In this document: positions 3,781 to 37,531 of the stretch, piece after piece
How the letters are laid out: each line of letters starts with the position of its first letter
Position numbering within the stretch: position 1 is the stretch's first letter
The notes under the pieces: generated by a model
The model's input: only the letters and a program-made list of their open reading frames with translations
Told to the model about the DNA's origin: nothing
The model's database searches: none
Origin: Candidatus Didemnitutus sp.
Lineage (GTDB): Bacteria; Verrucomicrobiota; Verrucomicrobiia; Opitutales; Opitutaceae
Direction: 5' to 3'
Length of the DNA: 51,759 nt
Assembly (NCBI GenBank): GCA_023701285.1
Contig: JAMPXH010000015.1
Location: 1-51,759, forward strand
Translations under genes and position numbers: made by a program

Positions 3781-5928
<2,148 letters not shown>

Positions 5929-5931
<3 letters not shown>

Positions 5932-6060
5932 ACCGGGATCATGCCGGAGGTGGGCGTCGGTGTCCCTACGGACGCCTGTCGCCGCTGGGACAGCGGCGAC
6001 CACCCCATGGTCAGGAACTCATCAGTCGGGAATCGCGTCCAACGGCATGAGTCCGGCTAA
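5929..6060. repeat. 132-bp structured interspersed repeat, copy A
   Basis: First of three ungapped 132-bp copies (others at 30989-31120 and 35900-36031). The ends are complementary: CCGGGATCATGCCG near the start, CGGCATGAGTCCGG near the end. Inside are two adjacent hairpins. Hairpin 1 has stem GGCGTCGGT/ACGGACGCC with one mismatch and loop GTCCCT (5962-5967). Hairpin 2 has a perfect stem GTCGCCGCT/AGCGGCGAC and loop GGGAC (5987-5991). GTCCC and GGGAC are complementary, allowing a kissing interaction. The left end coincides with the TGA of the kinase gene. Confidence 0.9.
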
Positions 6061-6120
6061 GCCGCCCCGGGCCGGCTTTCCGCTTGGAGCGCGCCGGCGC
6101 CACGCTACGCTGCGCCGTTC

Positions 6121-9669: not shown

Positions 9670-10200
9670 ATGCCGCCTGAGGCCAGTCCCGAAACCGTCC
9701 GCTGGTTTGCCACGGAAGTGCAGCCGCACCGTCCGGCGCTGCGCGCGTGGCTGCTGGCGCGGTTCCCGACGCTGCCCGATGTGGACGACATCGTGCAGGA
9801 AAGTCTCTCGCGGCTCGTGCAGGCGAGGGAAGTCAGCCCCATCCGCTCGGCCAAGGCCCTCCTTTTCACCACGGCGCGCCACCTTGCGCTCGATGCCGTG
9901 CGCCGCCAGCGCGTCGTCGCCTTCGAACCCATTACGGACGACACCGATCCGGCCGTCTTAACCGATACGGTCGATGTCGTCGCCTCGGTCGCCAAACAGC
10001 AGGAACTCGAACTCTTGACCAAAGCCATCCAGTCACTCCCCGAGCGCGTGCGGCAGATCTTCACGCTGCGCACGGCGTATGGCCTCACGCAGAAGCAGAT
10101 CGCCGGCAAGCTCGGCGTGTCCGAGAGCACGGTGGAGAAGCAGATGGCGCAAGGCATCCGACGCTGCGCCTCTTTCTTCGCCCGCGGAGGTGCGCGATGA
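9670..10200 (+). CDS. ECF sigma factor, module 1 (FecI-like)
   Basis: A 176-residue extracytoplasmic-function sigma-70 factor. Region 2 spans about residues 22-80 (RFPTLPDVDDIVQESLSRLV, SAKALLFTTARHLALDAVRR). Region 4 spans about 115-170 (LTKAIQSLPERVRQIFTLRT, then TQKQIAGKLGVSESTVEKQM). The gene overlaps the following fecR by 4 bp (ATGA), the classical FecI-FecR arrangement. It should direct RNA polymerase to the downstream receptor promoter when released by FecR signalling. It resembles the sigma factors at 16004 and 23012, including the shared RWF.TEVQPH.PALRAWL opening, indicating duplication. Confidence 0.93.
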   Translation: MPPEASPETVRWFATEVQPHRPALRAWLLARFPTLPDVDDIVQESLSRLVQAREVSPIRSAKALLFTTARHLALDAVRRQRVVAFEPITDDTDPAVLTDTVDVVASVAKQQELELLTKAIQSLPERVRQIFTLRTAYGLTQKQIAGKLGVSESTVEKQMAQGIRRCASFFARGGAR

Positions 10201-11234
10201 ATCCGAAACCGCACGATCCGATCCCCGGGGAAATCCTCGATGCCGCCTCCGTGTGGCTCGCGCGCCGCGACCGCGGCCTGACGGCGGCCGAGCAGGATGA
10301 CTACATGCAATGGCTCCGCGCCGACCCGCGCCACGCCGAGGCGCTGGCGCAGCACGCCGCCGCGCTCGAGCGCATGATGCAGCTCTACGAGTGGACGCCC
10401 GCGCACGACACCGAGCCGAATCCCGATCTCTTCGCGTCCGCGCCGACGCGGACTCGTTCCCGGTGGCGCTGGGCGGCGGGTTCGCTCGCAGCCGCGGCCG
10501 CCGTGACGCTCGCGCTCGTCCTTGGGAGACCGGCAGCCGATTCCACGGCAGTCGCCGCGGCGCCCAAGTCCTACCTCCGCGTCAACGAGCGCATGGCCCT
10601 GCCTGACGGCTCCCGCGTGGAGCTGAAGGATGGCACGCGGCTCGTCGTGCAATACTCCGAGCGCGAGCGCCGCGTGCAACTCGCCGGCGGCGAGGCTCAT
10701 TTCAGCGTGTGGAAGGATGCGCAACGACCGTTCGTCGTCGTGGCAGCCGGCGTGGAGGTGCGCGCCGTGGGCACGGCCTTCAACGTCCGCCTCGCCGAGC
10801 GCGATCTCTCGGTGCTCGTCACCGAGGGCCGCGTGCAGGTCGAGCCCGTTGCTCCGGCCGGCGCCGCCCCGGTCGCGACGACGCTCATCACGGTCGGCCA
10901 GCGCGCCATTGTGGACCTCACGACGCGGCGCACCGCGATCGTGGCCCCACCCATCGTGCAATCCGTCAGCGGCGAGGAGATCGCGCGCGAGCTCGCCTGG
11001 CAGGCGCCGCGCCTGCAGTTCGACGAGACGCCGCTCGCCGAGGCGGTGGCCGAGTTCAACCGCCTCAACCGCCACCAGCTCGAGCTCGCCGATCCCGCGC
11101 TCGGCGCGCTGCGCATCGGCGGCACGTTCCGCCCCGACAACGTCGAAGGCTTCGTGCGTCTGCTCGACGAGACGCTCGGCCTCCAAGCCGAACCCGCGGG
11201 CGAGAACCGCACCCGCCTGCGCCGCGCGCCGTGA
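10197..11234 (+). CDS. FecR-family anti-sigma/transducer, module 1
   Basis: A 345-residue inner-membrane signal transducer. An N-terminal DUF4880 segment (ASVWLARRDRGLTAAEQDDY, then MQWLRADPRHAEALAQH) faces the cytoplasm and binds the sigma factor. One TM helix is at about residues 85-105. The periplasmic FecR domain follows (LPDGSRVELKDGTRLVVQYS, VEVRAVGTAFNVRLAERD, LSVLVTEGRVQVEPV). The C-terminal DUF4974-like segment (LQFDETPLAEAVAEFNRLNR, FRPDNVEGFVRLLDETLGL) would contact the receptor STN domain. The start ATG overlaps the sigma stop. Confidence 0.92.
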   Translation: MNPKPHDPIPGEILDAASVWLARRDRGLTAAEQDDYMQWLRADPRHAEALAQHAAALERMMQLYEWTPAHDTEPNPDLFASAPTRTRSRWRWAAGSLAAAAAVTLALVLGRPAADSTAVAAAPKSYLRVNERMALPDGSRVELKDGTRLVVQYSERERRVQLAGGEAHFSVWKDAQRPFVVVAAGVEVRAVGTAFNVRLAERDLSVLVTEGRVQVEPVAPAGAAPVATTLITVGQRAIVDLTTRRTAIVAPPIVQSVSGEEIARELAWQAPRLQFDETPLAEAVAEFNRLNRHQLELADPALGALRIGGTFRPDNVEGFVRLLDETLGLQAEPAGENRTRLRRAP

Positions 11235-11281
11235 CGCCTGCCGCGCCGGGTGCTGACACAGTGGCGGCGAGAAAGTGTTAC

Positions 11282-11341
11282 GGGTTGGTCACGGCGCTTC
11301 GTCTTGGTAGGAAGCCGGTGCACACCGGCGCACACCAACCC
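11282..11341 (+). promoter_or_regulatory. Nested inverted-repeat leader of receptor 1
   Basis: Outer arms GGGTTGGT (11282-11289) and ACCAACCC (11334-11341) enclose an inner hairpin GCCGGTG-CA-CACCGGC (11314-11329), all just before the receptor start at 11347. The segment GGTCAC...TAGGAAGCCGGTG resembles the 5' half of the cobalamin-riboswitch core, but the conserved B12-box half is not convincingly present. The segment also holds TTCGTCTTGG (11298-11307), shared with receptor 2. Real structure is likely; ligand sensing is speculative. Confidence 0.35.
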
Positions 11342-11346
11342 CCATC

Positions 11347-14300
11347 ATGCGCACACTGAGTCAACTGCTCCGCGCCGTCCTGATCGGCGCCCTGATCCTC
11401 ACCGCGGGCTTCGCGGCGGAAGATGCGAAAAAGACCTACGACATCCCGGCCGGCGACGCCGCCGCGGCCCTGAAACAATTTTCCGCCCTCTCGGGCCGCG
11501 AGACGCTCTTCGCCGCCGAGGCGGTGCGCGGCGTGAAGACACCCGCCGTGCGCGGAGAGCTGACCGTGCGGGAGGCGATCGACGCGCTCCTCGCCGACAC
11601 CGGTCTCATCGCCACCGCCGACGAGAAGTCCGGCGCCATCGCCGTGCGCCGGGAGAGCGCAGTCGAAGCAAAAAACGACGCAAGCCGTCTCGCTGATGCA
11701 GAGGCGGCGGATAGCACGCGAACGCGGATCCAGAACGGCACGGTGCAAATGGAGAAGTTCGAGGTCACCGGCACCAAAGTCACCGGCGTCGTCAACCAAG
11801 GCATCATCCCGCGCGAGGAGAACCAAGCCGTGCGCTACAGCATCATCTCGCGCGCGGACATCGAGCGCAGCGGCGTCACCAGCTTGAGCGAACTCATGCG
11901 GAATGTTTCCAGCAACGCCGAATACAGCAACACACCGGAAGGCCAGCAGGCCGGCCGGGCCGCCACCTCCGGTCAGACCTTCGCCTTTGGCGACCAGATT
12001 AATCTGCGCGGGCTCGGCAACGGGCAGACGCTCGTGATGATAAACGGGCGGCGGCTTTATGGCCGCGACGGTTCCGGCAATGGTGCGGGAGCGGACATCG
12101 GGCGCATTCCCCTGGCGGCGGTTGAACGGGTGGAGATCCTGCCGGTTTCAGGGTCGGCCATTTATGGTGCCAATTCGGTCGGCGGTGTCGTCAACGTGAT
12201 CATGCGCAAGGGCTACAGCGGCACCGAAATCGGCACCTATTTCGGCGGCAGCAAAGGCGGCGGCGAAGAATACCGCCTCAACCTCTTTCACGGCCGCTCG
12301 TTCAACGAGGGCCGCTCCAATTTTTCGCTCACGCTGGATTACCAGCGGAAGTATGAACTGCTGTCCGGAGAGCGCGCCTATTACCGTCATGCCCTGGCGA
12401 ACCCGGCCGCACAGCCCCCATCGCCCGCCTTCGTTTCCGAGATTCTGTCTACCTTGACCGGGCCGCTGCCAACGATCCGGACGACCTCGCCCCTGGGCTT
12501 GGGCATTCCTTCGAATCCGACGGCCACCCTCGCTACTGTGCCGACGGGTTCGAGCGGCCTCGGACTAACGCCCAATGACTTTAACGCCACCGCTGGCCAA
12601 ACCGGAGTGTCCACCGTGGCGATTGCTCGGCTGCCGCTGCTGCCGAACATCCAGGGCCGGTCGGCTATCCTTAACTTCGATCATGAGCTATTTGGCGACC
12701 GCCTCGGGCTCTACGTCGAGCTGATGGGACGAACGGGCGAACGATACAACACCTTCCCAAGGCCCTCCGCATCCTATTCGCTGTCGGCGACCGATCCGAG
12801 AAATCCGTTCCGAACGGGTGTGACCCCCGGGTTTGTGGGCCGCGCGATCACGATAACCCGGGCGACGGAGGATCTGCCGGACTATTACCAAATCGCCCGG
12901 GACCGCACCGTGCGCGCGGTCGCCGGATTCCAGGGCAAGTGGACGACCGCGGATGATCGCTCCTTCAACTGGGCCTTGGACGGTTCGTGGGACCGGAATG
13001 CGACCGATGCCGATTATGTCACCCCCGTGGCGGGCCTCACCGCGGCCGCGACCGCCGGCATCTACAACTTGCTGCGCGACCTGACCGGGGTTCCGCAGTT
13101 TTCGAAGGAGGAGGCAGACAAGTATGCCTACACCTTGCTCGCCCGGAACTTTTCGACCGTTACCGCCGCGAACTTCCGGTTGAACGGCGACCTCATGAGA
13201 ATGTGGGGCGGGCCGGCGCGGTTTTCGCTCGGTGCCGAGCAGCGCAAGGAGGAATTTTCCACCCGCACTGGGTATACCAATATCGGCGAATACAACGCCC
13301 TCCCAGGCGGGGCCGCAGCGCCCGGCGCAAGCCTGGCCCCCGGAGGCAGCCTGGTGTTCTCCAATGTAGTTCCGACGGAGACGGAACGAAACGTCACGGC
13401 GGGCTACGCAGAGTTGGTGCTGCCATTAGTCGGCGAGCCCAATCGCCAGCCGTGGCTGCATTCCCTCGAATTGAGCGGCGGTCTGCGCTATGAGAAATAC
13501 ACCGACTTCAAGGCGGCCCGACCGCCCGCGCTCGCAGCCAAAATGGGCGTGACGCGCGATTTTGCGCTCCGCGTCGCCTACATGGAGGGCTTCCAACCGC
13601 CGACGCTCGCCCAGCTCGATCCCACGGTGACCACCTCCACCTCGACGGCGACCGCCTATGTGGACGTCCTGCGCCCAGGCCAGCCGCTCCCGAATAGCTA
13701 CCAGGTTATTGCCTCCGGCAATCCCGACCTCACTCCCGAAACGACGAAAACCTGGGATGTCGGCGTGATCCTAACCCCCCGCTGGCTGCCGGGGTTTACG
13801 CTCAACGTGAGTTATTTCCGCTACGACAAGCGGAACAGTATCTCCACCTTGTCGCTGGCGGACGCCATTCTCTTTGATCCGTCGCTCGTCATTCGTGCCG
13901 CGCCCACGCCGGCGGACACCGCCGCCGGCATGCCTGGAATCATCACGGGATATTACAGCATCCCGAAAAACTCCACGCGGCTGGAAACCGACGGCGTGGA
14001 TTTCGACCTGAACTATCGAATTTCCACGGAGCAGTGGGGACAATTCGCGCTTGTCGCGCAGGCCACCTGGAACCGGGAGTTCCTTGCGGAAACGCGACCT
14101 GGGATTTTCGCCGCCACCCGCGTCGGCGTGGCCCCGACCAATAGCGCCACGTTCCTGCTGCGGTGGAAAGGCTACGGCGGCATCCAGTGGCAAAAGGGAG
14201 TTTGGGCGGCCAGCGTCATGGCCAACTACAGCAGTTCGTTCCAGACCAGCACCACGGAGCCCACCGCGGAGAACCCCACCGGGTCAGGCATCGATGGCGC

Positions 14301-14535
14301 TTCGATCGGACCGCATTGCACGATCGACACGCAGGTCAGCTATTCAATTCCTTTGGGCGGGAGCGCGGCGTCGAATTGGCGGCGATGGGCGGGTGGCACC
14401 AAGTGGAGCCTTGGCGTCCGCAATCTGTTCGACGCTGAGCCGCCAACCTACACGGACCGCCGCCGGAACTACTACTTCCCGCTCGCCGATCCGCGACAGC
14501 AGTTCGTGTATCTGCAAATCAAGAAAACCCTCTGA
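11347..14535 (+). CDS. STN-type TonB-dependent outer-membrane receptor, module 1
   Basis: A 1062-residue TonB-dependent transducer. A signal peptide at residues 1-24 precedes an STN (secretin/TonB short N-terminal) domain at about 30-105 (IPAGDAAAALKQFSALSGRE, TPAVRGELTVREAIDALLAD), which signals to FecR. A linker and TonB-box-like FEVTGTK are followed by the plug (LNLRGLGNGQTLVMINGRRL-type motif, then RVEILPVSGSAIYGANSVGG). A large beta-barrel carries LSGGLRYEKYTDF and FALRVAYMEGFQPPTLAQLD. It ends VYLQIKKTL, with Leu rather than the usual terminal Phe. It lies 112 bp after fecR and is followed by a secreted thioredoxin. The ligand is unknown; uptake of a metal chelate or small organic compound is possible. 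Confidence 0.92.
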   Translation: MRTLSQLLRAVLIGALILTAGFAAEDAKKTYDIPAGDAAAALKQFSALSGRETLFAAEAVRGVKTPAVRGELTVREAIDALLADTGLIATADEKSGAIAVRRESAVEAKNDASRLADAEAADSTRTRIQNGTVQMEKFEVTGTKVTGVVNQGIIPREENQAVRYSIISRADIERSGVTSLSELMRNVSSNAEYSNTPEGQQAGRAATSGQTFAFGDQINLRGLGNGQTLVMINGRRLYGRDGSGNGAGADIGRIPLAAVERVEILPVSGSAIYGANSVGGVVNVIMRKGYSGTEIGTYFGGSKGGGEEYRLNLFHGRSFNEGRSNFSLTLDYQRKYELLSGERAYYRHALANPAAQPPSPAFVSEILSTLTGPLPTIRTTSPLGLGIPSNPTATLATVPTGSSGLGLTPNDFNATAGQTGVSTVAIARLPLLPNIQGRSAILNFDHELFGDRLGLYVELMGRTGERYNTFPRPSASYSLSATDPRNPFRTGVTPGFVGRAITITRATEDLPDYYQIARDRTVRAVAGFQGKWTTADDRSFNWALDGSWDRNATDADYVTPVAGLTAAATAGIYNLLRDLTGVPQFSKEEADKYAYTLLARNFSTVTAANFRLNGDLMRMWGGPARFSLGAEQRKEEFSTRTGYTNIGEYNALPGGAAAPGASLAPGGSLVFSNVVPTETERNVTAGYAELVLPLVGEPNRQPWLHSLELSGGLRYEKYTDFKAARPPALAAKMGVTRDFALRVAYMEGFQPPTLAQLDPTVTTSTSTATAYVDVLRPGQPLPNSYQVIASGNPDLTPETTKTWDVGVILTPRWLPGFTLNVSYFRYDKRNSISTLSLADAILFDPSLVIRAAPTPADTAAGMPGIITGYYSIPKNSTRLETDGVDFDLNYRISTEQWGQFALVAQATWNREFLAETRPGIFAATRVGVAPTNSATFLLRWKGYGGIQWQKGVWAASVMANYSSSFQTSTTEPTAENPTGSGIDGASIGPHCTIDTQVSYSIPLGGSAASNWRRWAGGTKWSLGVRNLFDAEPPTYTDRRRNYYFPLADPRQQFVYLQIKKTL

Positions 14536-14603
14536 AGCCGCTCGGCTCATCCCGCGCCCGCCCATCCTGGTAGCCCTGCGCTCTGCTAGGCAAAAAATCA
14601 TTC

Positions 14604-15854
14604 ATGAAATTCCCCGCCCTCCTCCTTATCCTTGCCAGTGCCCTCCTTCCGGCGCGAGCCGCCGAGGTCACGCCGCCGCCCAGTATTTTGGCGGCCGCCG
14701 TCGCCCAGGCCGCCACGGCCGACGAAGCCTGGCTCAGTGTCGCGAAGAGCTTTGAATCGAAGTTAAATCCCGATGTCCCGCCGTTTCCCGGCCGGACGCC
14801 GCTGGCGGTGTATCGGGTGTGGGGGCTGCGATATTATGCCAGCCTCTACCAGACCGGCACCGCGTTCATGGAGCGGTTTCCTCAGGATCCCCGGCGCTGG
14901 CACGTGGTGCTGCAGATGAACGACAAGAGTGGCTGGTTGCGCGACCATGATGAGCCGGAGGTCGCGCGGGCAATCGATGCCCTGGTGAGTGCGGAGCTGC
15001 GTGCCGCCTGGCGCGCACGGGCCAAGGCCCTGGCCGAGGAAGGGCTGGTCGCGACCGATACGCCCGCGGAGGTCCGGCTCTATTTCGATATGGGGACGTT
15101 TTACCGGATGCGCGGGGCCGCGTCCCAGGCGATCACGACGAAACAGCCGGTCGAGTTCGCGGCCATGCGGACGGAGTTAGACCGCCTGATCGCAAAATAT
15201 CCCGAGGAGGAAAAGATGGGCGGGTATGTGACCCAATACGTCGGCTTGAAGCAGAAGGCCGGCGCGAGCGCCGATGAGCTTGAGCGGGAATGGCGGAGCC
15301 TGGAAAAGTCCGGCAGCGCGTCGGTGCGCAAAGCTGTCGAAACCGGCCTCGTGAAGCTCGTAGCCTACCGCCGTTTCCTCGATCTCAAAAGCCGGCCGCT
15401 GGACATCGCGTTTACCGCGGTCGACGCGCGGGCCGTGGACCTGAAGGCGCTGCGCGGCAAGGTGGTGTTGGTTGATTTCTGGGCGACTTGGTGCGCCCCG
15501 TGCAAGGAAGAGATTCCGAACATCAAGAAGGTTTATGCGGCCTACCATGAGAAGGGCTTCGAGGTCGTGGGCATTTCGCTGGAAAACGCGGGGCTCACCC
15601 CGCAGGACACGCCGGAGCAGAAGGAGGCCAAGCTCGCGAAGGCGAAGACCGTGCTGACGGCATTCACGGCGGCAAACGCCATGCCCTGGCCGCAACATTT
15701 CGACGGCAAGTTCTGGAAGAACGACATCTCGATGAAGTATGCGATCACCGCGATTCCCGCGATGTTCCTGCTCGATCAAGAAGGCAATATCGTCACCACG
15801 GATGCCCGCGGCCCGAAGCTCGAAGCCGAGGTGAAGCGCCTGCTTGGGTTGTGA
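14604..15854 (+). CDS. Secreted TlpA-like thioredoxin, module 1
   Basis: A 416-residue exported protein: signal peptide MKFPALLLILASALLPARAA, an alpha-helical N-terminal domain of roughly 250 residues without a recognised name, and a C-terminal TlpA/AhpC-TSA redoxin domain. The active site is FWATWCAPCKEEIP (Cys297, Cys300), with the family cis-Pro region ITAIPAMFLLDQEGNIV. The predicted role is periplasmic disulfide reduction, possibly on cargo or components linked to the receptor encoded 68 bp upstream. The domain plan is shared with 20841-22043, an evident paralogue. The thioredoxin function is clear; its target is not. Confidence 0.9.
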   Translation: MKFPALLLILASALLPARAAEVTPPPSILAAAVAQAATADEAWLSVAKSFESKLNPDVPPFPGRTPLAVYRVWGLRYYASLYQTGTAFMERFPQDPRRWHVVLQMNDKSGWLRDHDEPEVARAIDALVSAELRAAWRARAKALAEEGLVATDTPAEVRLYFDMGTFYRMRGAASQAITTKQPVEFAAMRTELDRLIAKYPEEEKMGGYVTQYVGLKQKAGASADELEREWRSLEKSGSASVRKAVETGLVKLVAYRRFLDLKSRPLDIAFTAVDARAVDLKALRGKVVLVDFWATWCAPCKEEIPNIKKVYAAYHEKGFEVVGISLENAGLTPQDTPEQKEAKLAKAKTVLTAFTAANAMPWPQHFDGKFWKNDISMKYAITAIPAMFLLDQEGNIVTTDARGPKLEAEVKRLLGL

Positions 15855-15859
15855 AATTG

Positions 15860-15920
15860 GGCCGGCTACAGCCGGCCTCGGGGAGCAATATGACCATAAA
15901 CAGTCCGGCTTCAGCCGGAC
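15860..15920. repeat. Paired CCGGCT hairpins (REP-like)
   Basis: Two 8-bp hairpins 25 bp apart after the module 1 thioredoxin gene: GGCCGGCT-AC-AGCCGGCC (15860-15877) and GTCCGGCT-TC-AGCCGGAC (15903-15920). They share the CCGGCT-N2-AGCCGG core. They may form a bidirectional transcription barrier or a REP-type element; the gap to the next sigma gene holds no other gene. Confidence 0.6.
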
Positions 15921-16003
15921 CTGCCCGTCGGCCCGAAAAATTCTTTTAGTGTCCTTCACGGGCTGGGACGTCTAGGGGTGTTGAGCCGACCGCTCTTCTC
16001 CCT

Positions 16004-16540
16004 TTGCCCCCGGATTCCCCCCAGTCCCGTTGGTTCGCCGAGCACGTGCTCCCGCACGAGCCGATGCTGCGGGCTTGGTTGCACAGCCGCTTTCCGGCCG
16101 GTGTGGAGATCGACGACGTCGTGCAGGAGGCGTTCTTGCGCGTGATCCGGGCCCACGAGCGGGGCCAGCTCGATTCGCCCAAGGCGTTTCTCTTCGCCAC
16201 GGCGCGCAATCTCGCGCTCGATCGCATCCGCCACGGGCAGGTCGCGCGCACGACACCTTTAGTGGAAAACGAAGGCTGGGACGTCCTGTATGACGCGGAC
16301 GACGTCACCGAGACGGTCGCACGCAACCAGGAACTCGAACTCTTGACCGAAGCCATCCAATCATTGCCCGACCGTTGCCGCCAGGTCTTCACTTTGCGGA
16401 AGGTTTATGGTATGTCGCAGGCCGACATTGCGGCGAAGCTCGGCATCTCGGAGCACACAGTCTCGGCCCAACTCACCATCGGCGTGCAGAAGTGCACGCA
16501 ATTCATGGCGAAATACCGCCGCGAAGGGAGCGGCGCTTGA
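16004..16540 (+). CDS. ECF sigma factor, module 2 (FecI-like)
   Basis: A 178-residue ECF sigma factor, probably starting at TTG 16004, which lines its N-terminus (MPPDSPQSRWFAEHVLPHEP) up with the module 1 sigma. Region 2 includes FPAGVEIDDVVQEAFLRVIR and AFLFATARNLALDRIRHGQV. Region 4 includes TEAIQSLPDRCRQVFTLRKV followed by MSQADIAAKLGISEHTVSAQ. Downstream is the cognate fecR with a 4-bp overlap. Expected target: the promoter of the receptor at 17737. No Shine-Dalgarno is visible, so the exact start is less certain than the product. Confidence 0.92.
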   Translation: MPPDSPQSRWFAEHVLPHEPMLRAWLHSRFPAGVEIDDVVQEAFLRVIRAHERGQLDSPKAFLFATARNLALDRIRHGQVARTTPLVENEGWDVLYDADDVTETVARNQELELLTEAIQSLPDRCRQVFTLRKVYGMSQADIAAKLGISEHTVSAQLTIGVQKCTQFMAKYRREGSGA

Positions 16541-17556
16541 GCGACGCCATGAAATCCCGCGAAGACGAACGCATCGATCACGCTGCCGCCGAGTGGCTCA
16601 TCCGGCGCGATCACGGCCTGTCGCCGGCGGAGCAGGACGAGTTTTTCCAATGGCTCGCGGCCGATCCGCGGCACGGCGAACGCTTCGCGCAGCACCAGCG
16701 CACGTGGAAGGAGTTCAATCTCCTCGCGCAATGGCGTCCTGAGCACAGCACCGAGCCCAACCCCGACCTTCTCGCCAAGCCGCGCCGCGCCCGCCGCTGG
16801 CTGGCGTGGGCCGCGCCACTCGCGCTGGCCGCGTCGCTCGCGCTCGGGCTGTTCGTGTGGCAACAAGGCGGCTTGGTTCCTGCCGCCGCCCCACGCGCGG
16901 AAACGGGCAGCCGGCAGGGCACGCGCGTCCTCGAGGATGGTTCGACGGTCGAATTGCGCGGCGACAGCGAGATTGCCGTCGCGTTCAGCGACGCTGAGCG
17001 GCGCGTGGTTCTCGTGCGCGGCGAGGCGTTCTTCACCGTCGCGAAGAATCCGGCGCGACCTTTTGTCGTGCGTGCGCAGGGCGTCGACGTGCGCGCCGTC
17101 GGCACCGCCTTCAACGTCCGGCTCGATCCGGAGCACGTCGAGGTTCTCGTCACCGAGGGCCGCGTGCACGTCACGCCGCCGGCAGCGCCGGCCTCCAGGG
17201 CGACGCCTCCGCCGGATCTGCCTTTGGTTGAGGCGGGCCAGCGCGCCGTCGTGCCGCTGGCGACCGCACGCACGCCCAGCGTGGCGCGCGTGGGGGAGGA
17301 GGAGATCGCCCGGGCACTCGCCTGGCAGCCCCGCCTGCTCGATTTTGATTCCACGCCGCTCACTGAAGTCGTGGCGGAGTTCAACCGCCGCAATGTCACG
17401 CAGCTCGTGCTCGCCGATGACGCGCTCGCCGGCATGCCGATCGTGGCCTCCGTCCGCTCGGACAACGTCGAGGGCTTCGTGCGCTTGCTCGAGGTCAACG
17501 GCAGCGTGTGGGCCGAGCGGCGCGACGGGAGAATTTTCCTGCGCGCCGTGCGTTGA
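16537..17556 (+). CDS. FecR-family anti-sigma/transducer, module 2
   Basis: A 339-residue transducer: DUF4880 segment (AAEWLIRRDHGLSPAEQDEF), single TM at about residues 90-112, FecR domain (VLEDGSTVELRGDSEIAVAF, VDVRAVGTAFNVRLDPEHVE, VLVTEGRVHVTPPA) and DUF4974-like tail (LLDFDSTPLTEVVAEFNRRN, SVRSDNVEGFVRLLEVNGSV). I chose the TTG at 16537 because GGGAG (16526-16530) sits 6 nt before it and it overlaps the sigma stop as TTGA, matching the ATGA overlap in module 1. An ATG 12 bp further in (16549) is the alternative, but GGGAG would be 18 nt away. It senses the module 2 receptor and controls the module 2 sigma. Confidence 0.9.
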   Translation: MSDAMKSREDERIDHAAAEWLIRRDHGLSPAEQDEFFQWLAADPRHGERFAQHQRTWKEFNLLAQWRPEHSTEPNPDLLAKPRRARRWLAWAAPLALAASLALGLFVWQQGGLVPAAAPRAETGSRQGTRVLEDGSTVELRGDSEIAVAFSDAERRVVLVRGEAFFTVAKNPARPFVVRAQGVDVRAVGTAFNVRLDPEHVEVLVTEGRVHVTPPAAPASRATPPPDLPLVEAGQRAVVPLATARTPSVARVGEEEIARALAWQPRLLDFDSTPLTEVVAEFNRRNVTQLVLADDALAGMPIVASVRSDNVEGFVRLLEVNGSVWAERRDGRIFLRAVR

Positions 17557-17708
17557 TATCCCGACTTGCTGCCGGGGCCTCATGCGCCGTTGTTTTATCG
17601 CGGGCGGAGGCGGGACGTGTTTGGCGCAAAAACATCGCCTGCTCGCGCGAAGACTCCGCGCCGCGTGGCATAAAACCCGATTTCGCCTTAGTGTGAATTC
17701 GCCGCAAA

Positions 17709-17718
17709 TTCGTCTTGG
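17709..17718 (+). promoter_or_regulatory. TTCGTCTTGG motif before receptor 2
   Basis: TTCGTCTTGG followed by GAG-C-GAA, 18 bp before the receptor 2 start. Receptor 1 has the same decamer at 11298-11307 followed by TAG-GAA. CGTC is the common -10 core of ECF-type promoters, so it may be part of a sigma-dependent promoter, but no shared -35 element at fixed spacing is evident. Confidence 0.35.
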
Positions 17719-17736
17719 GAGCGAACCCACACACTG

Positions 17737-20700
17737 ATGTCACACCTGCCCCGCATTGGATTCGCGCGCGCCGCCTGTCTCGCCGCGCTGTTTTTCGCCG
17801 TCACGCTCTCCGGCTTTGCCGCCGGTGCGGTTCGCTCCTTCGATGTTCCCGCCGGCGACGCTGCCGCGACGCTGAAGCAGGCGGCGAAGCAGGGCGGCGT
17901 CGAAATCGTCTTTCCGGCTGCGGTCGTTCGCGGCGTGCGGACGGCGCCGGTCAAGGGGGAATTCACGGCGCGCGACGCGATCAGTCTCATGCTGGCCGAC
18001 ACCGAGCTCGTTCTGGTGCAAGACGAGGAAACCGGCGCGCTGACGGTCAACCGGCTTTCCTCGGAAGCAAAAAACGTCCCAAGCCGTCCCGCTGACGCGG
18101 CGACGGCTCCCGCGAACCCGCGCATCGAGGATGGCACCGTCAAGCTGGACACCTTCGAGGTCTTCGGCAGCAAGACGCTGAACATGGATGTGGCGCGCTC
18201 GCGCGACGACGCGTTGCCGTATGTCGTGTTCGATCGCCAATCGATCAACAATTCCGGCGCGACTTCGCTTGAGGAATTTTTTCGTCAGCGGCTGACGATG
18301 GAGTCGACCGCCCTGTCCGAATCGCAAACTACCTCGAATCTCGGCGGGCGCAGCACGATCAATTTGCGCGGCCTCGGAGCGAACCAGACCCTGATCCTCG
18401 TCGACGGTCACCGCATGTCGGGCGTCGTTTCCGTCGGCTCGCCGTCGCAGCCCGACTTGAACGGCATTCCGCTCGCAGCGGTCGAGCGCATCGAGGTGCT
18501 GCCGACCAGCGCCGGCGCCATCTACGGCGGCAACGCCACCGGCGGCGTCGTGAACATCATCCTGCGCCGCGACTACTCCGGCGTGGAGCTGAAGCTCACC
18601 TACGGCAACACCTTCAAAACCGACGCGGCCACGCGTCAGATCGACCTCAGCGCGGGCGCCACGCTGTTCGGCGGCAAAACGAACCTCCTCATCGCCGCCA
18701 GCGCGAGCGATGCCAACCGTCTGCTTGCGCAGGACCGCGATCTGCGCGAACGCGGCCTCGCGCGCATCCTCGCAAACAACCCTGCGTTGATAACGAGCCA
18801 GACCGTGCCGCCTGTCGGCAGCACCTCCAACATCCGCAGCACGAACGGCTCGAATCTCGTGCTCGACGACGGCACCTTGCTCAATTCGCCGATCACCTTC
18901 GTCCCGATCGGCTACGCGGGAGCCTTCGGCGCTGGCGGTGATAACGGCGTGGCGTTCGTGGCCAACGCCGGTCGCTACAATCTGGAGAACGCGCAGACGA
19001 TCACCGGCGGCCAGCGCGCGCTGCTGAGCGCGCCGAAGCGCGAGTCGCTCATGGTCACCGTGCGCCACGAATTTTCGGACAAGCTCCAGGCCTTTCTCGA
19101 AGTCAGCGGCTCCAACAACACCAGCCGTTACCCGAGCGCGAACTCGAACAGCTTCGTGCTGCCCGGCAACAATCCCTTCAATCCCTTCCAGCAGCAGATC
19201 CGCATCACGACCCCCTATTACGGCGTGAATGATCTCGAGGCTTTCACCTCCTCGAAGGACCGCCGGCTCGTCGGCGGCGTGATCGTGCAGCTGCCCGCCG
19301 ACTGGAAAGGCGAAGTCGACTACATCTGGCACGAGGCGACGTTGCTGAACCAGCGCACGATCATGAGCGATGCGGCGCTGACGCAGGCGGGCGCGGGCGT
19401 AACGGCCGGAACGATCAACCTGCTGCGCGACACCATGGCGTATCCGGTCGATTTCCTGCCGTTCTTCGACGAGATCGACGGCGGCCTGCCATCGCGTTCG
19501 ATCAACCGCTCCATTGCGGCGCGCTTCGCCGGCCCGATTGGAAAATTGCCCGCGGGCCAGCCGATTCTCTCCACGCTCGTCGAACACCGTGATCAGCAAT
19601 ACGGCGGCCCCGGCAGCGGCACGGCGGAGCCGCAAACGCAGCGCGTCAAAAGCGCGTATATGGAAACGAAGTTTCCGCTCGTCGCGTCCGATTTCAATTG
19701 GCCGCTCGTGCAGGAACTCGAAGTCCACGTCGCCGCGCGGTGGGATGACTACACCTCGGTCGGGCAGGGGATCGCGACGCCGTTTGGCCCTCCGGGCAGC
19801 GGCACGAACAAATTCGATTCGATCAATCCGTCCGCCGGTCTGCGCTGGGTGCTGAACCCCAGCCTGATGGTCCGCGCCAGCTACGGCACCGGCTTCCTCC
19901 CGCCGAACGTGAACAACATCGCGCCGACAAGCTTCCCCGGTTTCCCGGGCTTCTACCAGGATCCGCTCCGCGGCAATGAATTCGTCGGCTTCTACGACGA
20001 GATCTTCGGCGGCAATCCAAACCTCAAGCCGGAGAAGTCCGAAACCTGGTCCGCCGGTCTCGTGTTCACGCCACCGGAGCTCAAAGGGCTGCGTATCTCG
20101 GCCGATTGGACGCGCATCGAAAAGACCGACAATTTCGGGTCGCCCGACGTGTTCGACGTGCTTGCCAATGAGGCCGCCTACCCCGGACGCATCGTGCGCG
20201 GCCCCGTGCCTCCAGGCGATCCGTTTGGCGTCGGCCCGATCATCGCGATCGACACGAGCCTGATGAACCTGGCACGCGCGATGGTGGAGACCGTGGACCT
20301 CAGCCTCGAATACACGCGCGAACTCCCGTTTGGGCGCGTCGATGTTTTTGCCACGGCCACCTACACCGTGAGCTACGAGACGCAGACGCAGGCGGGCTCG
20401 CCGGTCGTCGAGCGTGTGGGTTTCGCCAACAGCGCGCAATCTGCGGCCGGCGGCGGCGCGTATCCGCTGCGCTGGCGGGGCAACACCGGCGTCACCTGGA
20501 CGCGCGGCCGCCTGCAAGCCGGCTGGTCGCTGCGCTACATCGACGACTACCAGCTCGACACCTTCAGCGCCGCCACGCTGCTCGCCCAGGGCAACGCCGG
20601 CCGCATCGAAGACCAGATCTATCACGACGTTTTCGTCAGCTACACGTTCGGCGCACAAGACAGCACCGCCCGCTGGCGCCAGCTGCTCGCCGGCACGCAG

Positions 20701-20832: not shown

Positions 20833-20840
20833 ACCCTTTC

Positions 20841-22043: not shown

Positions 22044-22154
22044 GCGCAGGGTCGCCGGCTCGCGGCGCACACCGGGCGTGGCCTGGTTCGTGGTGCCGCG
22101 CGGCCGCCTCCACTCGCGGCTTGTTTTATCCCCGGCGGGGAATTTCTTCCGCGC

Positions 22155-22871: not shown

Positions 22872-22940
22872 CGGGGGATTGGAATTGCTCTGTTCGTGCT
22901 AAGACGGACGTGTCGGCGCTTTCCATTAAGGCCGGCCTCA

Positions 22941-22957
22941 AAAAACTCCCACCCGGG
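22941..22957 (+). promoter_or_regulatory. Shared upstream motif AAAAA-N5-ACCCGGG
   Basis: AAAAA (22941-22945), 5-nt spacer, ACCCGGG (22951-22957), ending 54 bp before the module 3 sigma start. Matches the motif at 9085-9101 with identical spacing. Confidence 0.3.
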
Positions 22958-23011
22958 TAAAAGGCCTCGACTTGCGCCGGCGGCGGGCGTGGCTTGGGCA
23001 CTGTCCCCGCC

Positions 23012-23542: not shown

Positions 23543-23550
23543 CACCCCGC

Positions 23551-24582: not shown

Positions 24583-24713
24583 CCGGGGCCCGGCCGGACT
24601 TATGACGTGCCCCGGCGCTGCGCCGGTCCCGCGGGACTAATGGAAATGCGCGCGCCGTCCGTCGCTCCCCGTATCCGGCTTTGTTTCCCGCACCGGTCAC
24701 CTACGCACACCAC

Positions 24714-27994: not shown

Positions 27995-30991
27995 ATGCGC
28001 TGTTTCCGCTCCCTCGTTCCCCTCGCTCTCGCGCTGCTGTGCGTCGCGGCCCTCCCGGCTCAGACGGTCGAGACCGTCCCTGCCTCCGCTGACGCGTCAT
28101 CCGCGCGCGTCGCCGGTCCGCAGCCGGGCGAGTTGGCGCCCGATTTCACCGTCACCGGCCCCGACGGGCGCGAGGTGAAGCTGTCCGACTTTCGCGGCAA
28201 GGTCGTGATGCTCGACATCTGGGCCACGTGGTGCGGTCCGTGCGTCGCCGCGATGCCGCACAACAGCGAACTCGCCGCGAAGCACGCCGGCGACGGACTC
28301 GTCGTGCTCGCGGTCTGCGCCTCCGACACGCGCGAGAACTACGACGGCTGGCTCAAGCGCAACGCCGCCAAATACCGTTTCCTCACCGCGCACGACCGTG
28401 CCGGCCGCGACTGGAAGTCCTCCGTGTTCAACACCACCTGGGGCGTCACGGGTTTCCCCACGATCTTCGTCATCGGGCGCGACGGCCGCCTCGTCGGCAC
28501 CGCCACCGGCGGCGGCACGGGCGAGAATCCCGGCGTCACGCGCCTGCTCGCCCGCGCCGGCCTGCCGGTTTCCACGGCGCATCTGCCGCCCGAGGATGCC
28601 GCAACGCCGAAGTCCGTCCCCGCGATGCTCAAAACCGCTGCCGCGCCCGCCACGCCCACGATGCGCTTCGCCAACATGGCGGCGGGCGAAACCGTGCCGG
28701 ATTTCGAGACGCTCGATACCTCCGGCCGCGCGGTGAAGTTGTCCGATTTCCGCGGCAAGACGGTGTTCATCAGTTTCTGGACCGGCGGCCGCAACCCGCC
28801 CGCCGACGTCGCGCAACTGCACGCCGCCTACGCCGAGCAGGGCCTCGCGGTCTGGGCGATCAACACCGCCACGGAACGCGCCGATTTCGAAGGCTGGGCG
28901 AAGGAGCACGCCGCCGCGCTCGGCCACGCCGTGTCGTGGGACCCGGCCGGCAAGGCGGTCATGGAGGCGATCTCGCACATGATCTTCGGCGCCGGCATGT
29001 ATCCGGCGTATTGCGTCGTCGGACCCGATGGCAAACTCGTGGGTGGCATCATCGGCATGGGCCCGCGTGTCAGCAGCCTGTTGCGCGAAATCGTCGGCCG
29101 GGCCGGCGTGAAGCTCACCGCCGCTGACCGCGAGGCGGTCGAGCAGATCCTCACCGCCATCCGCACCCAGCCCGCCGCCGCCGCGCCTGCGCGCATGGGC
29201 GGCCTGTTGCCCGCGGCCGGCGGCAGTGTCCCCGCGGCTGCGATCGGCGGCATGCAACCGGCGAAGCCCGTTGCCACGCCGGCTCCGCGCCCCGCCACGC
29301 TCGCGCCCGGCGCGATCGCTCCGGATTTCACGATGCACACCGTCGCCGACCGCGAGGTGAAGCTCTCGGACTTCAAGGGCAAGGTCGTCATCCTCGATTT
29401 CTGGGCCACGTGGTGCGGCCCGTGCATCGCGTCGTTCCCGCACACGCAGGAGATCGCCGCCAAATACAAGGACCAAGGCGTCGTCGTGCTCGCCTCGGGC
29501 ACGAGCGACACGATCGCGGCATTCAAGAAGTGGATTCCCGCCAACCTCGCCAAGTATCCCGACATGGTCTGGGCCTTCGATCCGCATGAGCGCGGAAGCG
29601 CGACGTTCGACGAGCGCGCGTCCAGCAAGCTCTACGCCGTCACCGGCATCCCCACGCAGTTTGTCATCGGGCGCGACGGCAAGGTCGGCGCCGTGATTGT
29701 CGGCAACGGCGGCAAGGACGACGCGCGCACCGAGGCTGCGCTCGCTGCCCTCGGCGTGAACGTCGACGCCGCCATCGTGGCGAAGGGCCGCGAGCAGCTC
29801 GCCGCCGCCGAGGCCCGCGAGCGCGCCCGCGCGGAGGAGGCGAAGATTCCGCGTCCGCCGTTCCACGAGGATTTCGGCAAATTGAAGGCCGGCGAGATCG
29901 CGCCCGAGGTGGAATTGCTCGGACTGGATGGCGCAGGCGTGAAATTCGCCTCCATCGCGAGCGGCCGCGTGAAGGTCATCGGCGTCTGGAGCGGCGGCCA
30001 CGGTCCGGGCGACGGCTATCTCGCGCAGTGGCGCACGTGGAGCGCGAAGTATCCCGGCGTCGCCTTTGTCGGCGTCGGTGGCTTCGCCGCGCTTGAGGAG
30101 GTGCAGGCGTGGAAGACCGCGCGCGGTGCGGATTTTCCTTTCGCGCTCTACGCCGATCCCACCGGACGCCCGCCGCGGCCGGCGAAGGAGATGGACGAGA
30201 TGACCGACGAGGAGAAGGCGGCCTTCCGCGATGCCTCGCGCGCCCATTACGACAATATCTTCACCGTGAAGCTCGGCGGGATCATGGCGCCCGTGCCCAC
30301 GACCCTCGTTTTCGATGCCACGGGCAAGCTCGTGGGGTGGAGCGCCGGCTTCGGCGACCAATATTCCGAGGTGCTGGGGAATCTCTTCCTCCGCGCCGGC
30401 GTGAATCTCGCCGAGTCCGACCGTCCCGCGCGCGTCTGGACGCCCGAGGAGACGAAGCCCAAGCCGCCCGAGCCGCGCGGCGAAGCGCTCAAGATCGGCG
30501 CCGCCGCGCCGGATTTCACCACGCAGACCCTCGACGGCCGCGACGTGAAGCTCTCCGACTATCGCGGCAAGGTCGTCATCCTCGATTTCTGGGCCACATG
30601 GTGCGGTCCGTGCATGGCGGCCATGCCGCATACGCAGCAGGTCGCCGCGCAATACAAGGACCAGGGCGTCGTTGTCCTCGGCTCCTGCACGAGCGACACC
30701 CGCGCGAAGTTTGAGGAGTGGGTGCGGCGCAACCAGGAGACTTATCCTGACATCGTCTGGTCGCACGATCCCGCCGAGCGCGGGGCCGACCGGGCGTCGA
30801 ACAAGCTCTACGGCGTGCGCGGCATCCCGACGCAGTTCATCATCGATCGCGAAGGCAAGGTGGTGGACATCGTGATCGGCTACCAGAAAGGCGAAGTCAT
30901 CCTCGATGCCTCGCTCGCCAAGGCCGGCGTGAAAGTCGCGCCCGAAGTCCTCGCGCAAGCCGCCAAGCAACTCAAAGCCCGCGGCAACTGA
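27995..30991 (+). CDS. Five-domain TlpA-like polythioredoxin
   Basis: A 998-residue exported protein with signal peptide MRCFRSLVPLALALLCVAAL, followed by five TlpA/AhpC-TSA thioredoxin folds spaced about 185-205 residues apart. Domains 1, 3 and 5 carry ATWCGPC (Cys80/83, Cys474/477, Cys870/873). Domains 2 and 4 have WTGGRNPPAD (from Trp262) and WSGGHGPGDG (from Trp665) at the same place and no cysteines there. Each active domain has PDFT...DGREVKLSDFRGKV-type strands and GIPTQFVI/GFPTIFVI cis-Pro loops. Linkers are Ala/Pro-rich. The start is ATG 27995 (27971 also possible). It sits 116 bp after the interrupted receptor, in the slot held by single thioredoxins in modules 1 and 2. Its stop codon lies in repeat copy B. 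Predicted periplasmic multi-site reductase; substrate unknown. Confidence 0.93.
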   Translation: MRCFRSLVPLALALLCVAALPAQTVETVPASADASSARVAGPQPGELAPDFTVTGPDGREVKLSDFRGKVVMLDIWATWCGPCVAAMPHNSELAAKHAGDGLVVLAVCASDTRENYDGWLKRNAAKYRFLTAHDRAGRDWKSSVFNTTWGVTGFPTIFVIGRDGRLVGTATGGGTGENPGVTRLLARAGLPVSTAHLPPEDAATPKSVPAMLKTAAAPATPTMRFANMAAGETVPDFETLDTSGRAVKLSDFRGKTVFISFWTGGRNPPADVAQLHAAYAEQGLAVWAINTATERADFEGWAKEHAAALGHAVSWDPAGKAVMEAISHMIFGAGMYPAYCVVGPDGKLVGGIIGMGPRVSSLLREIVGRAGVKLTAADREAVEQILTAIRTQPAAAAPARMGGLLPAAGGSVPAAAIGGMQPAKPVATPAPRPATLAPGAIAPDFTMHTVADREVKLSDFKGKVVILDFWATWCGPCIASFPHTQEIAAKYKDQGVVVLASGTSDTIAAFKKWIPANLAKYPDMVWAFDPHERGSATFDERASSKLYAVTGIPTQFVIGRDGKVGAVIVGNGGKDDARTEAALAALGVNVDAAIVAKGREQLAAAEARERARAEEAKIPRPPFHEDFGKLKAGEIAPEVELLGLDGAGVKFASIASGRVKVIGVWSGGHGPGDGYLAQWRTWSAKYPGVAFVGVGGFAALEEVQAWKTARGADFPFALYADPTGRPPRPAKEMDEMTDEEKAAFRDASRAHYDNIFTVKLGGIMAPVPTTLVFDATGKLVGWSAGFGDQYSEVLGNLFLRAGVNLAESDRPARVWTPEETKPKPPEPRGEALKIGAAAPDFTTQTLDGRDVKLSDYRGKVVILDFWATWCGPCMAAMPHTQQVAAQYKDQGVVVLGSCTSDTRAKFEEWVRRNQETYPDIVWSHDPAERGADRASNKLYGVRGIPTQFIIDREGKVVDIVIGYQKGEVILDASLAKAGVKVAPEVLAQAAKQLKARGN

Positions 30992-31120
30992 GCCGGGATC
31001 ATGCAGGAGGTGGGCGTCGGTGTCCCTCCCGACGCCGGTCGCCGCTGGGACAGCGGCGACCACCCCATTGGCAGGAGCTCATCAGTCGGGAGTGGCGTCC
31101 AACTGCATGAGTCCGGCTCA
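30989..31120. repeat. 132-bp structured interspersed repeat, copy B
   Basis: Same length as copy A, with no gaps. The ends are near-perfect inverted repeats: TGAGCCGG-GA-TCATGCAG at the left and CTGCATGA-GT-CCGGCTCA at the right. Hairpin 1 has stem GGCGTCGG/CCGACGCC with loop centred on GTCCC. Hairpin 2 has stem GTCGCCGCT/AGCGGCGAC and loop GGGAC. The left TGA is the stop codon of the polythioredoxin gene. Changes relative to copy A keep the outer pairing (GCCG/CGGC there, GCAG/CTGC here). Confidence 0.92.
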
Positions 31121-31151
31121 GCCGCGCGCACTCCTTCGCGCGGGACAAATT

Positions 31152-35763: not shown

Positions 35764-35899
35764 GAAAATCCACCACACACACCGGCGCCATGGGCGGCGA
35801 GAGCGAATTCCGCCCGGTGACCGAACGGCCCGGGTCGGGGCTCGCGCAGGCTTCCGGGCGCCGCGCGGCCGATCCGGGCACTGGCTGCGCCCGCCGGGC

Positions 35900-36031
35900 T
35901 CAGCCGGGATCATGCAGGAGGTGGGCGTCGGTGTCCCTACCGACGCCTGTCGCCGCTGGGACAGCGGCGACCACGCAATTGTCACGAGCTCATCAGTCGG
36001 GAATCGCGTCCAATTGCATGAGTCCGGCTCA
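35900..36031. repeat. 132-bp structured interspersed repeat, copy C
   Basis: Third copy, again exactly 132 bp. Hairpin 1 is perfect here (GGCGTCGGT-GTCCCT-ACCGACGCC) and hairpin 2 is unchanged (GTCGCCGCT-GGGAC-AGCGGCGAC). Outer arms pair with one G-U (ATGCAG with TTGCAT). The right end TCA (36029-36031) is the stop codon TGA of the minus-strand cystathionine gamma-synthase gene. So relative to its flanking gene the element is inverted compared with copies A and B. Confidence 0.92.
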
Positions 36032-37531
36032 GGCGCCGAGCGCCTCGTCGAGCGCGGCGATGATCTCGTAGACCGGCTCGATGCCGACGGAGAGACGCAG
36101 CAACTCCGGCACGAGGCCCGCGCGCGCGAGTTCGTCGCCGCCGCCGCGGTGCGGCAGCAGATCGTAGTGCGCGAGGTAGATGTAAGGGCAGAGGAGCGTC
36201 GTCCGCATGCCGAAGCTCGGTCCCTTGGCCAGCGGCACGCGGTCGTAGAAGGACGCGATGGGCCGCTTCAAGGTGAACGACACCACGGCGCCGACCGCTT
36301 CCGGGCGGCGCGCGATACGGCGGTAATTCGCGGCAGTCCCTTCCTGCAACGACCACCACACACGCTCGACTGCCGGGTGACTTTCTAGAAACGCCACGAC
36401 CTGCGGCTTGTTGGCGTTGATGCGCGCGACGACTTCGGCCGCGGAGCCGATCTCGGCAGCCAGGCGCGCGAGATCGCGCGGGTAGGGGGCGTCCAGCCCG
36501 GCGGCGACCCGCGTCTGCAACGCCGCCGCGTCGGGCCCGGCCGGGTTGACCACGGCCGCGCCGGCCATGACGTCGCCCTCGTGCGAGGCATACTTGGTGA
36601 GGCTGAACGCGACGATGTCCGCGTGCGGCAACACATCGACGTTGAAGGGCGAGGCGATGGCCGGGTCGACGATCACGCGCACCCCGTGGCGGCGCGCGAG
36701 CGCGGCGACGGCGGCGAGGTCGGCCGTGTGCAGCAGCGGGTTCGTGGGCGCCTCGGTGATCAGGCCCGCGATGCGCGGCCCGTGCGCGGCCAGCAGTTGC
36801 TCCAGCGCGGCGAGGTCGCGCACATCGTGCAACACGAGGTGGTCGTGCGCCGGGTCGGGCGTGAATTTTTTCAGCAATGCGATGGTGTCGAGGTAGAGCC
36901 AGCCGAGCTGCACCCAGGCGGTGCGGCCGCGCGGCGCCTGCACTTCGCCGACCGCCCGGAAGGCGGCGTGGATGGCACTCATCCCGCTCGGTGCGAGGTG
37001 CAGGTGGCGTTCCGCGCCCGGGAAGCAAGGCCCCAGCACCCGGCGCACCGCCAGCGCGGCATCGCCCTTGAAAGTCGTCTCGGCGCCGGCGGCCGGCAGC
37101 CGGCCGAGGCGCACCAGCGCATCCTCCGCGCCCCGCGAGCTGAGCAGCGTGCCGGTGTGTTGCAGCCAGAGCTTCGCCTGCGCCGCGAGCGCTTCGCCGG
37201 CGGGATGCAGCACCGCTTCCACGCCCTGCACGCGGACGTGTCGCGCGGGCGCGCCGCCGAGTTGCGCGACGAGGGTCTCCGCGGCCCGGGCGGAGATGAG
37301 TGGCCAGAGTTGTTCGCCGGCCTGTGCCACCTCGGCGGTCAGCGCCGCGATGAGTTGTCGCACGAACGGGTGCAGCGCGAAGCGCGGGTAACCCGCCTGC
37401 ATGCGCGCGGTCACGGCCGGATCGCGTTCTTCGTAACCGATGATGTCCGCCAGCGTGGGCAGGCTGCACGAGACGGAGTGGACCGATCCGGGGATCGGGC
37501 AGCCGAGCGGGAGAGGGGTGAACGCGGACAT
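36029..37531 (-). CDS. Cystathionine gamma-synthase, fungal (STR2-like) type
   Basis: A 500-residue fold-type I PLP enzyme of Cys/Met metabolism that would join activated homoserine (probably O-acetylhomoserine here) with cysteine. Start ATG 37531. Unlike the usual bacterial MetB of about 390 residues, it has a 100-residue extension beginning PIPGSVHSVSCSLPTLADII then GYEERDPAVTARMQAGYPRF, which resembles the N-terminus of fungal cystathionine gamma-synthases. PLP lysine is Lys313 in FSLTKYASHEGDVMAG. Other motifs: ITEAPTNPLLHTADLAAVAA, VRVIVDPAIASPF, and C-terminal RLSVGIEPVYEIIAALDEAL. Divergent from metX-thrA. The stop codon lies in repeat copy C. The 157-bp divergent region shows no SAM riboswitch. 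Confidence 0.88.
   Translation of the reverse strand: MSAFTPLPLGCPIPGSVHSVSCSLPTLADIIGYEERDPAVTARMQAGYPRFALHPFVRQLIAALTAEVAQAGEQLWPLISARAAETLVAQLGGAPARHVRVQGVEAVLHPAGEALAAQAKLWLQHTGTLLSSRGAEDALVRLGRLPAAGAETTFKGDAALAVRRVLGPCFPGAERHLHLAPSGMSAIHAAFRAVGEVQAPRGRTAWVQLGWLYLDTIALLKKFTPDPAHDHLVLHDVRDLAALEQLLAAHGPRIAGLITEAPTNPLLHTADLAAVAALARRHGVRVIVDPAIASPFNVDVLPHADIVAFSLTKYASHEGDVMAGAAVVNPAGPDAAALQTRVAAGLDAPYPRDLARLAAEIGSAAEVVARINANKPQVVAFLESHPAVERVWWSLQEGTAANYRRIARRPEAVGAVVSFTLKRPIASFYDRVPLAKGPSFGMRTTLLCPYIYLAHYDLLPHRGGGDELARAGLVPELLRLSVGIEPVYEIIAALDEALGA

Follow-up and report, generated by a model that had tools for sequence, protein, structure and literature searches.

The 132-bp repeat that occurs three times in the window (the whole 51,759-nucleotide stretch of DNA analysed here) is very probably a non-autonomous MITE of IS1380 type, recognisable by its ends and its CTNAG target, which carries as cargo a REPIN of the GTAG/GTGG kind. 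The three copies (5929-6060, 30989-31120 and 35900-36031) lie where an earlier note had placed them, each with the two hairpins described there, and copies 2 and 3 align with copy 1 without gaps at 88% and 89% identity, respectively, over 146 nt. Of the two explanations that the note had offered, a kissing-loop or pseudoknot RNA and a nonautonomous mobile DNA element with internal structure, it is the second that is borne out, by terminal inverted repeats (TIRs), target duplication, empty sites in the sister species G012 and an IS1380-type partner in relatives. Each component is already of a known kind, and what would be new is the combination. The 132 nt extend from the T that opens the left TNA to the A that closes the right one and so include the three inner bases of both CTNAG; with the two targets in full the unit measures 134 bp, without them 124 bp (Table 1).

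Table 1. Positions in the window of the three copies of the repeat and of their parts.
Feature	Positions	Strand	Remark
Copy 1 with both targets	5928..6061	+	left CTGAA, right CTAAG, unequal
Left TIR, copy 1	5933..5945	+	compared with IS1380-type ends
REP unit 1 (hairpin 1), copy 1	5949..5976	+	
REP unit 2 (hairpin 2, inverted), copy 1	5977..6004	-	
Right TIR, copy 1	6040..6056	-	compared with IS1380-type ends
Copy 2 with both targets	30988..31121	+	left CTGAG, right CTCAG, unequal
Left TIR, copy 2	30993..31005	+	compared with IS1380-type ends
REP unit 1, copy 2	31009..31036	+	
REP unit 2 (inverted), copy 2	31037..31064	-	
Arm from REP pair to right end, copy 2	31065..31099	+	varies more than the REP core, 66 copies
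Right TIR, copy 2	31100..31116	-	compared with IS1380-type ends
Copy 3 with both targets	35899..36032	+	CTCAG at both ends, identical
Left TIR, copy 3	35904..35916	+	compared with IS1380-type ends
REP unit 1, copy 3	35920..35947	+	
REP unit 2 (inverted), copy 3	35948..35975	-	foot departs from the exact REP pattern
Right TIR, copy 3	36011..36027	-	right-end pattern

The source genome (G000) is a draft of 4.02 Mb in 220 contigs, 95% complete, in which the window is contig C119 and repeats break the contigs. Loci were fetched from it as matches to a core-hairpin pattern with at most two mismatches; rows with three mismatches, mostly the same sites on the opposite strand, were left out. The fetched loci contain 88 distinct nhmmer matches, with about 80 copies of the repeat beyond the three in the window. 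Sixty-six matches are exactly 132 nt long, with a mean pairwise identity of 91%, four are truncated by contig ends, two (L073 and L086) are the hairpin part alone, and the remainder have indels or damaged ends. The copy count is a lower bound, because further element ends sit at contig edges. At L199 (2672-2781) and L204 (104-219) of the same genome the hybrid is shortened by deletion to 110 and 116 bp, with part of the hairpin pair gone. A search of a plasmid collection gave no match to the repeat, and a pattern scan of the genome contig collection gave none to the composite.

The ends of the element are inverted repeats, CCGGGATCATGC and CCGGACTCATGCAGTTG, enclosed by a 5-bp duplication, CTNAG, and the copies share the register C-TNA-G CCGGGATCATGC ... 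GCATGAGTCCGG C-TNA-G. As is usual for a MITE, the unit is short, non-coding and bounded by TIRs, with 124 bp between the targets and the ends CCGGGATCATGC and CCGGACTCATGC. A CTNAG-type target is readable at both ends of 60 of the 84 G000 copies and unreadable in the other 24. The two TNA are identical in 56 of the 60 readable copies (29 TGA/TGA and 27 TCA/TCA), evidence of target duplication that is carried solely by the variable middle base of CTNAG; since an inverted repeat would pair TGA with TCA, the two TNA form a direct duplication. The base flanking TNA is C on the left in 62/64 and G on the right in 62/66. Because these outer bases are nearly fixed and are the same in the IS1380 relatives, the target is read as the 5-bp CTNAG, and a first reading as a 3-bp TNA duplication was given up. 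Targets are unequal in two of the three window copies (copies 1 and 2), and the left and right CTNAG agree in 11 of 16 elements of relatives that were listed by hand.

The sister species G012 provides a view of the sites before insertion. Its assembly is 86% complete, 1.2 Mb of its 2.9 Mb were read for junctions, and its flanks are 93.0% identical to those of G000 (flanks aligning at ≥85%). Against the many copies in G000, genome searches of G012 found no element, end or REP, and no element is present in the 1.2 Mb either. For 22 copies, one of them the hairpin-only L073, the flank could be aligned up to the junction in G012, and at these junctions CTNAG is present in 14/22 and a called stop in 18/22. 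Both flanks are contiguous, within 12 bp, at eight of the junctions, as at empty sites of a MITE; window copy 3 yielded two short matches only. The empty sites with their existing stops indicate, therefore, that many insertions most likely postdate the split of G000 and G012 and were made onto stop codons already there, with loss of all copies in G012 being formally possible but unlikely. Among the copies that could be aligned to G012 the sense orientation relative to the gene prevails (17 TGA/TAA versus 4 TCA/TTA), although TGA and TCA are balanced overall (29 and 27).

The origin of the ends is indicated by longer elements in relatives. The right-end pattern (≤1 mismatch) is present in 11 of the 38 genomes searched, and the same ends enclose unlike interiors in G004, G006, G013 and G029. 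Elements of ~1.4-1.5 kb with CTNAG and CCGG..TCATGCA ends occur in G025 (L245, L253 and L254), comparable ones occur in named MAGs of Opitutaceae (L266) and Verrucomicrobia (L267 and L268), and an element of this size in G009 (L225) has CTNAG and both ends in more divergent form. L253 encodes a 476-aa transposase of the IS1380 family (NF033539, 242.7 bits against a cut-off of 180; PF13701, 129.7 bits), and L266 bears one end of each variant known from the MITE. In relatives, ends and target are accordingly common to the MITE and to an IS that encodes an IS1380-family transposase. A transposase-like C-terminus also reads into the same end in G022 (L169), where the fragment scores 18.5 bits against PF13701, below the cut-off of 34.7, and in G004 (L210), where the frame lies at a contig end and its similarity to the transposase was judged by eye only. 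Neither PF13701 nor a protein-fragment search gave a match to an IS1380 transposase in G000, which is weak evidence for its absence because both searches also gave none in G004, despite L210, and because G000 is a draft.

Other candidates for the engine were discarded. The IS1031 group of the IS5 family has a TNA target, and was dropped once the IS1380 transposase turned up. The Y1 transposase of contig C144 was ruled out as the cognate enzyme, being flanked by another inverted repeat; the Y1_Tnp gene lies between inverted copies of AAGGGGTCATGGCTTGACTCTTGACA (L213:1300-2360) and in this resembles published tyrosine transposases with flanking TIRs. In G013 (contig C17, L118:1-456) a MITE end of the family adjoins a helix-turn-helix transposase-like gene, which was considered as a partner and is taken instead as a probable insertion into a MITE. 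Inverted ends and a 5-bp duplication are shared by the repeat with IS1380-family IS and IS-derived MITEs, the 5-bp direct repeat being listed for IS1247 of the IS1380 family (PMC3281130, Table 2), and the lack of coding capacity and the placement of copies outside coding sequence are shared with IS-derived MITEs. Unlike in these elements, the target of the repeat is a fixed motif, CTNAG, and its interior is a REPIN rather than a deleted transposase gene. The open-licence PubMed Central literature yielded no paper on IS1380 MITEs of the repeat's group.

The interior consists of an inverted pair of GTGG-tagged REP hairpins, hairpin 1 being GGTGGGCGTCGGTGTCCCTACCGACGCC and the reverse complement of hairpin 2 being GGTGGTCGCCGCTGTCCCAGCGGCGACA, which is the arrangement of a REPIN. 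The name, the two alternative folds (a long hairpin or a clover) and the link of REPINs to RAYTs are given in passages of PMC3116915, and GTGG is the form of the tag in most GTAG-20 elements of Opitutus terrae according to a section of PMC3733652. The cargo thus resembles REPINs and GTAG-type REPs in having two inverted REPs as adjacent hairpins with a GTGG tag. The exact REP pattern is present in 7 of 57 genomes, with 139 sites in G000, 11 each in G001 and G002, 19 in G006, 8 in G007, 37 in G008 and 1 in G027, of which G001, G002, G006, G007 and G008 are genus members; the reversed control pattern gave one site in G000 and one in G005. REPs of the same family are also found outside the MITE in relatives. 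As in REPIN/RAYT systems, RAYT genes are flanked by such REPs in relatives, exactly in G008 and with one mismatch in G007, which bears out the earlier suggestion of RAYT-type transposases as far as the interior of the repeat is concerned. The G008 and G007 RAYTs score 79.2 and 74.6 bits against NF047646, slightly below the cut-off of 80, and 26.4 and 27.5 bits against PF01797 (cut-off 23), and RAYTs that match the G007 one at ≥62% identity over nearly the full length are present in G001, G002, G007 and G008. A cognate RAYT was not found in the G000 draft, which is again weak evidence for its absence; the nearest RAYT frame there (contig C176) has 40% identity and one internal stop. This nearest RAYT-like frame (L309:815-1335) is flanked by a different palindrome, GGTGGGGGCGGTTGTCC.

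An ordinary REPIN or BIME moved by a RAYT, with the outer 132-bp frame as nothing but conserved flank, would account for the inner REP pair with its GTGG tag and for the RAYTs beside such REPs in relatives. It is nevertheless very improbable: the supposed flank terminates in DDE-type inverted repeats between duplicated targets, its ends are also those of an IS1380 partner, and they enclose other interiors as well. Moreover, among the REP sites examined, which do not cover all those near contig ends, REPs without the frame make up 2 of the 88 matches (L073 and L086), and G000 did not yield the RAYT that such movement would call for. The IS1380-type MITE with REP cargo differs from ordinary REPINs in that nearly every REP pair examined in G000 lies inside a DDE-type MITE and has multiplied with it, and from REPIN/RAYT systems in that no cognate RAYT was found in the same genome.

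The loops GTCCC and GGGAC, which the earlier note had reported as exact 5-nt complements, keep this property in 54 of the 66 copies of 132 nt. The complementarity arises because the two hairpins are one REP unit in opposite orientations, and the kissing loop or pseudoknot that had been proposed from it is unsupported as an explanation. Both stems are fully paired in 33/66. REPs beside RAYT genes retain the GTCCC loop even where the next inverted REP is ~500 bases away. Rfam gave no match at the gathering score in the window, and at E≤5 on L001, L005 and L025 the best overlap was Scr3202, a chance-level hit of 25.9 bits (cut-off 52).

It is very unlikely that the repeat is a structured RNA (a kissing-loop or pseudoknot RNA, whether a cis-regulatory element or an sRNA) that has spread as a repeat and whose fold is its function. 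The fold is very stable, beating shuffles on either strand for all three copies (z -3.6 to -6.8; one shuffle in 6 x 200 equalled it), and this favours such an RNA, as do the complementary loops, the lower variability of the stems than of the arm at G/C sites (1.3% versus 4.7% per site, p=8e-5) and the stem covariation between species. The last was seen in 50 REP units of relatives, obtained with a pattern that fixes the CG pairs, in which three variable stem pairs are paired in 137/150 cells with several pair types. Within the family, however, double compensatory changes are no commoner than chance predicts (1 versus 0.9 expected in 66 copies, with few changes and low power), wobble-keeping changes do not differ between sense and antisense (7:2 versus 6:1, p=1, again at low power), the repeat lies as often in one orientation to the gene as in the other, and Rfam gave no match for the window or the three loci. 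Variants common to several copies are fewer in the hairpins (16 in 56 sites versus 24 in 35 arm sites, p=0.008, kinship ignored), whereas private variants are not clearly rarer there (32 in 56 versus 25 in 35 sites, p=0.42); the lack of a clear difference in private variants also speaks against a functional RNA. Shared variants being depleted and private ones not clearly so, the pattern points to a constraint on amplifying copies rather than on those already inserted, with small numbers and kinship ignored; selection by the host on the hairpins after insertion was tested with the private variants and was not seen. The fold is concluded to belong to the REP cargo.

Hybrids of an IS1380-type MITE with a REP pair, full-length or nearly so, also occur in G006 (L109) and G007 (L124 and L306). 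At five further loci in G006 (L172, L187, L192, L196 and L216), IS1380-type ends surround a different, REP-like inverted pair with GTGGGCCAGC feet; none of 14 loci checked contained a RAYT with such feet. In G002, REPs of the same family are held by another carrier, 125 bp long, with the unlike ends TACCA...TGGTA. Twenty of the G002 matches were fetched, and 17 of them are full elements (L388-L397, L399-L401 and L403-L406); L125 and L135 are duplicates. Identical 3-bp TNA stand on both sides in 13/17 of the full elements, and 1/17 is at a called stop, judged from flanks of only ~300 bp. Searches for a transposase or autonomous partner of the TACCA carrier gave nothing.

Taken with the IS1380-type, CTNAG carrier of G000, G006 and G007, the TACCA-ended, TNA carrier of G002 raises the speculation that REPINs can change engines, with at least two uptakes by MITEs with unlike ends and with a cargo in G000 that outlived its RAYT and now stands in ~80 copies, mostly on stops. 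The same proposal holds that the hairpins may help their carrier, since the shared variants that are depleted in hairpins (p=0.008, kinship ignored) probably predate the amplification. As a whole it is put forward tentatively, with a little less than even confidence.

All three window copies adjoin a gene end directly. The left TGA of copy 1 (5929-5931) is the called stop of a PAS/histidine-kinase gene (3781-5931), the left TGA of copy 2 (30989-30991) is that of a redoxin/thioredoxin-domain gene (27995-30991), and the right TCA of copy 3 (36029-36031) is that of a minus-strand PLP-enzyme gene (36029-37597). The single gene that ends in copy 2 encodes redoxin/thioredoxin-like domains several times over (repeats D1 and D12; Pfam). 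Elsewhere in the window, positions 9670-27674 hold three similar modules in tandem of a FecR-type regulator and a TonB-dependent receptor (repeats D2-D8), identified with Pfam in one module of the three.

Across the genome, with genes called by a small, simple codon model trained on the window, 48 of the 60 copies whose targets are readable had a called stop, and three of the other 12 have nearly no flank. Used as a gene caller under stricter rules, the model placed 44 copies at stops, 10 in intergenic sequence and 1 in coding sequence (n=55); with both TNA weighed and a slightly wider target pattern, the figures were 48, 12 and 0 (n=60). CTSAG sites in the same sequence served as background, and the 197 of them divide into 132 coding, 30 stop and 35 intergenic ones. 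Every CTNAG contains a stop codon on one strand, and orientation relative to the gene is even, at 29 TGA and 27 TCA. The preference for stops over intergenic sequence persists against non-coding CTSAG (48/60 insertions versus 30/65, odds ratio 4.7, p=0.0001) and when intergenic sites on the 3' side only are compared (48:4 versus 30:12, p=0.012), and both comparisons would suit active targeting, in which the transposase or a partner recognises gene ends, in place of a choice of CTNAG followed by loss. Active targeting is nevertheless regarded as unlikely. In relatives, by the codon model trained on the window, 6/21 of the family's outward-facing ends of stop type coincide with a called stop, and the G002 carrier does so in 1/17; the bias towards stops may thus be peculiar to G000. 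Furthermore, 0/60 insertions are coding (1/55 under the stricter rules) compared with 132/197 background sites, from which it follows that selection acts, and the gene calls behind the preference rest on a simple codon model.

The favoured sequence of events, choice of CTNAG followed by loss, would begin with an IS1380-type transposase that acts in trans and cuts at the CCGG...TCATGC ends of a MITE that had, presumably, captured a REP pair. The unit would insert at CTNAG with duplication of the five bases and, where CTNAG is a true gene end, the duplication would restore the stop, so that the protein would be unchanged and the copy tolerated, a tolerance that probably works through purifying selection. 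The hairpins would multiply passively with their carrier and end up just behind the gene, where they may have an effect on the mRNA. A position mainly behind genes is shared with QMITE2 of Coxiella, a MITE of 3' UTRs (described in the review PMC10969869); what sets the repeat apart is that its duplicated target is itself the stop codon. As with GTAG REPs that give flanking ORFs their stop, the end of the repeat coincides with the stop; in the GTAG REPs the tag TAG supplies it (PMC3733652), whereas in the repeat the stop is also present at the orthologous empty site and is then duplicated.

A REPIN cargo in an IS1380-type MITE, multiplied in a genome that yielded no cognate RAYT and placed mostly on stop codons, was not found in the open-licence PubMed Central literature. 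REPINs are regarded as dependent on a RAYT and as passed on together with it. If the present reading is true, a REPIN that multiplies in a DDE-type MITE, with no RAYT of its own found, would break this rule and offer a natural test of what the hairpins need. In addition, an element that inserts at stop codons and re-creates them would be a clean case of harmless insertion. Strong hairpins sit directly behind dozens of genes in this organism, and any effect on transcript ends would be measurable by comparison with the sister species, in which searches found no copies.
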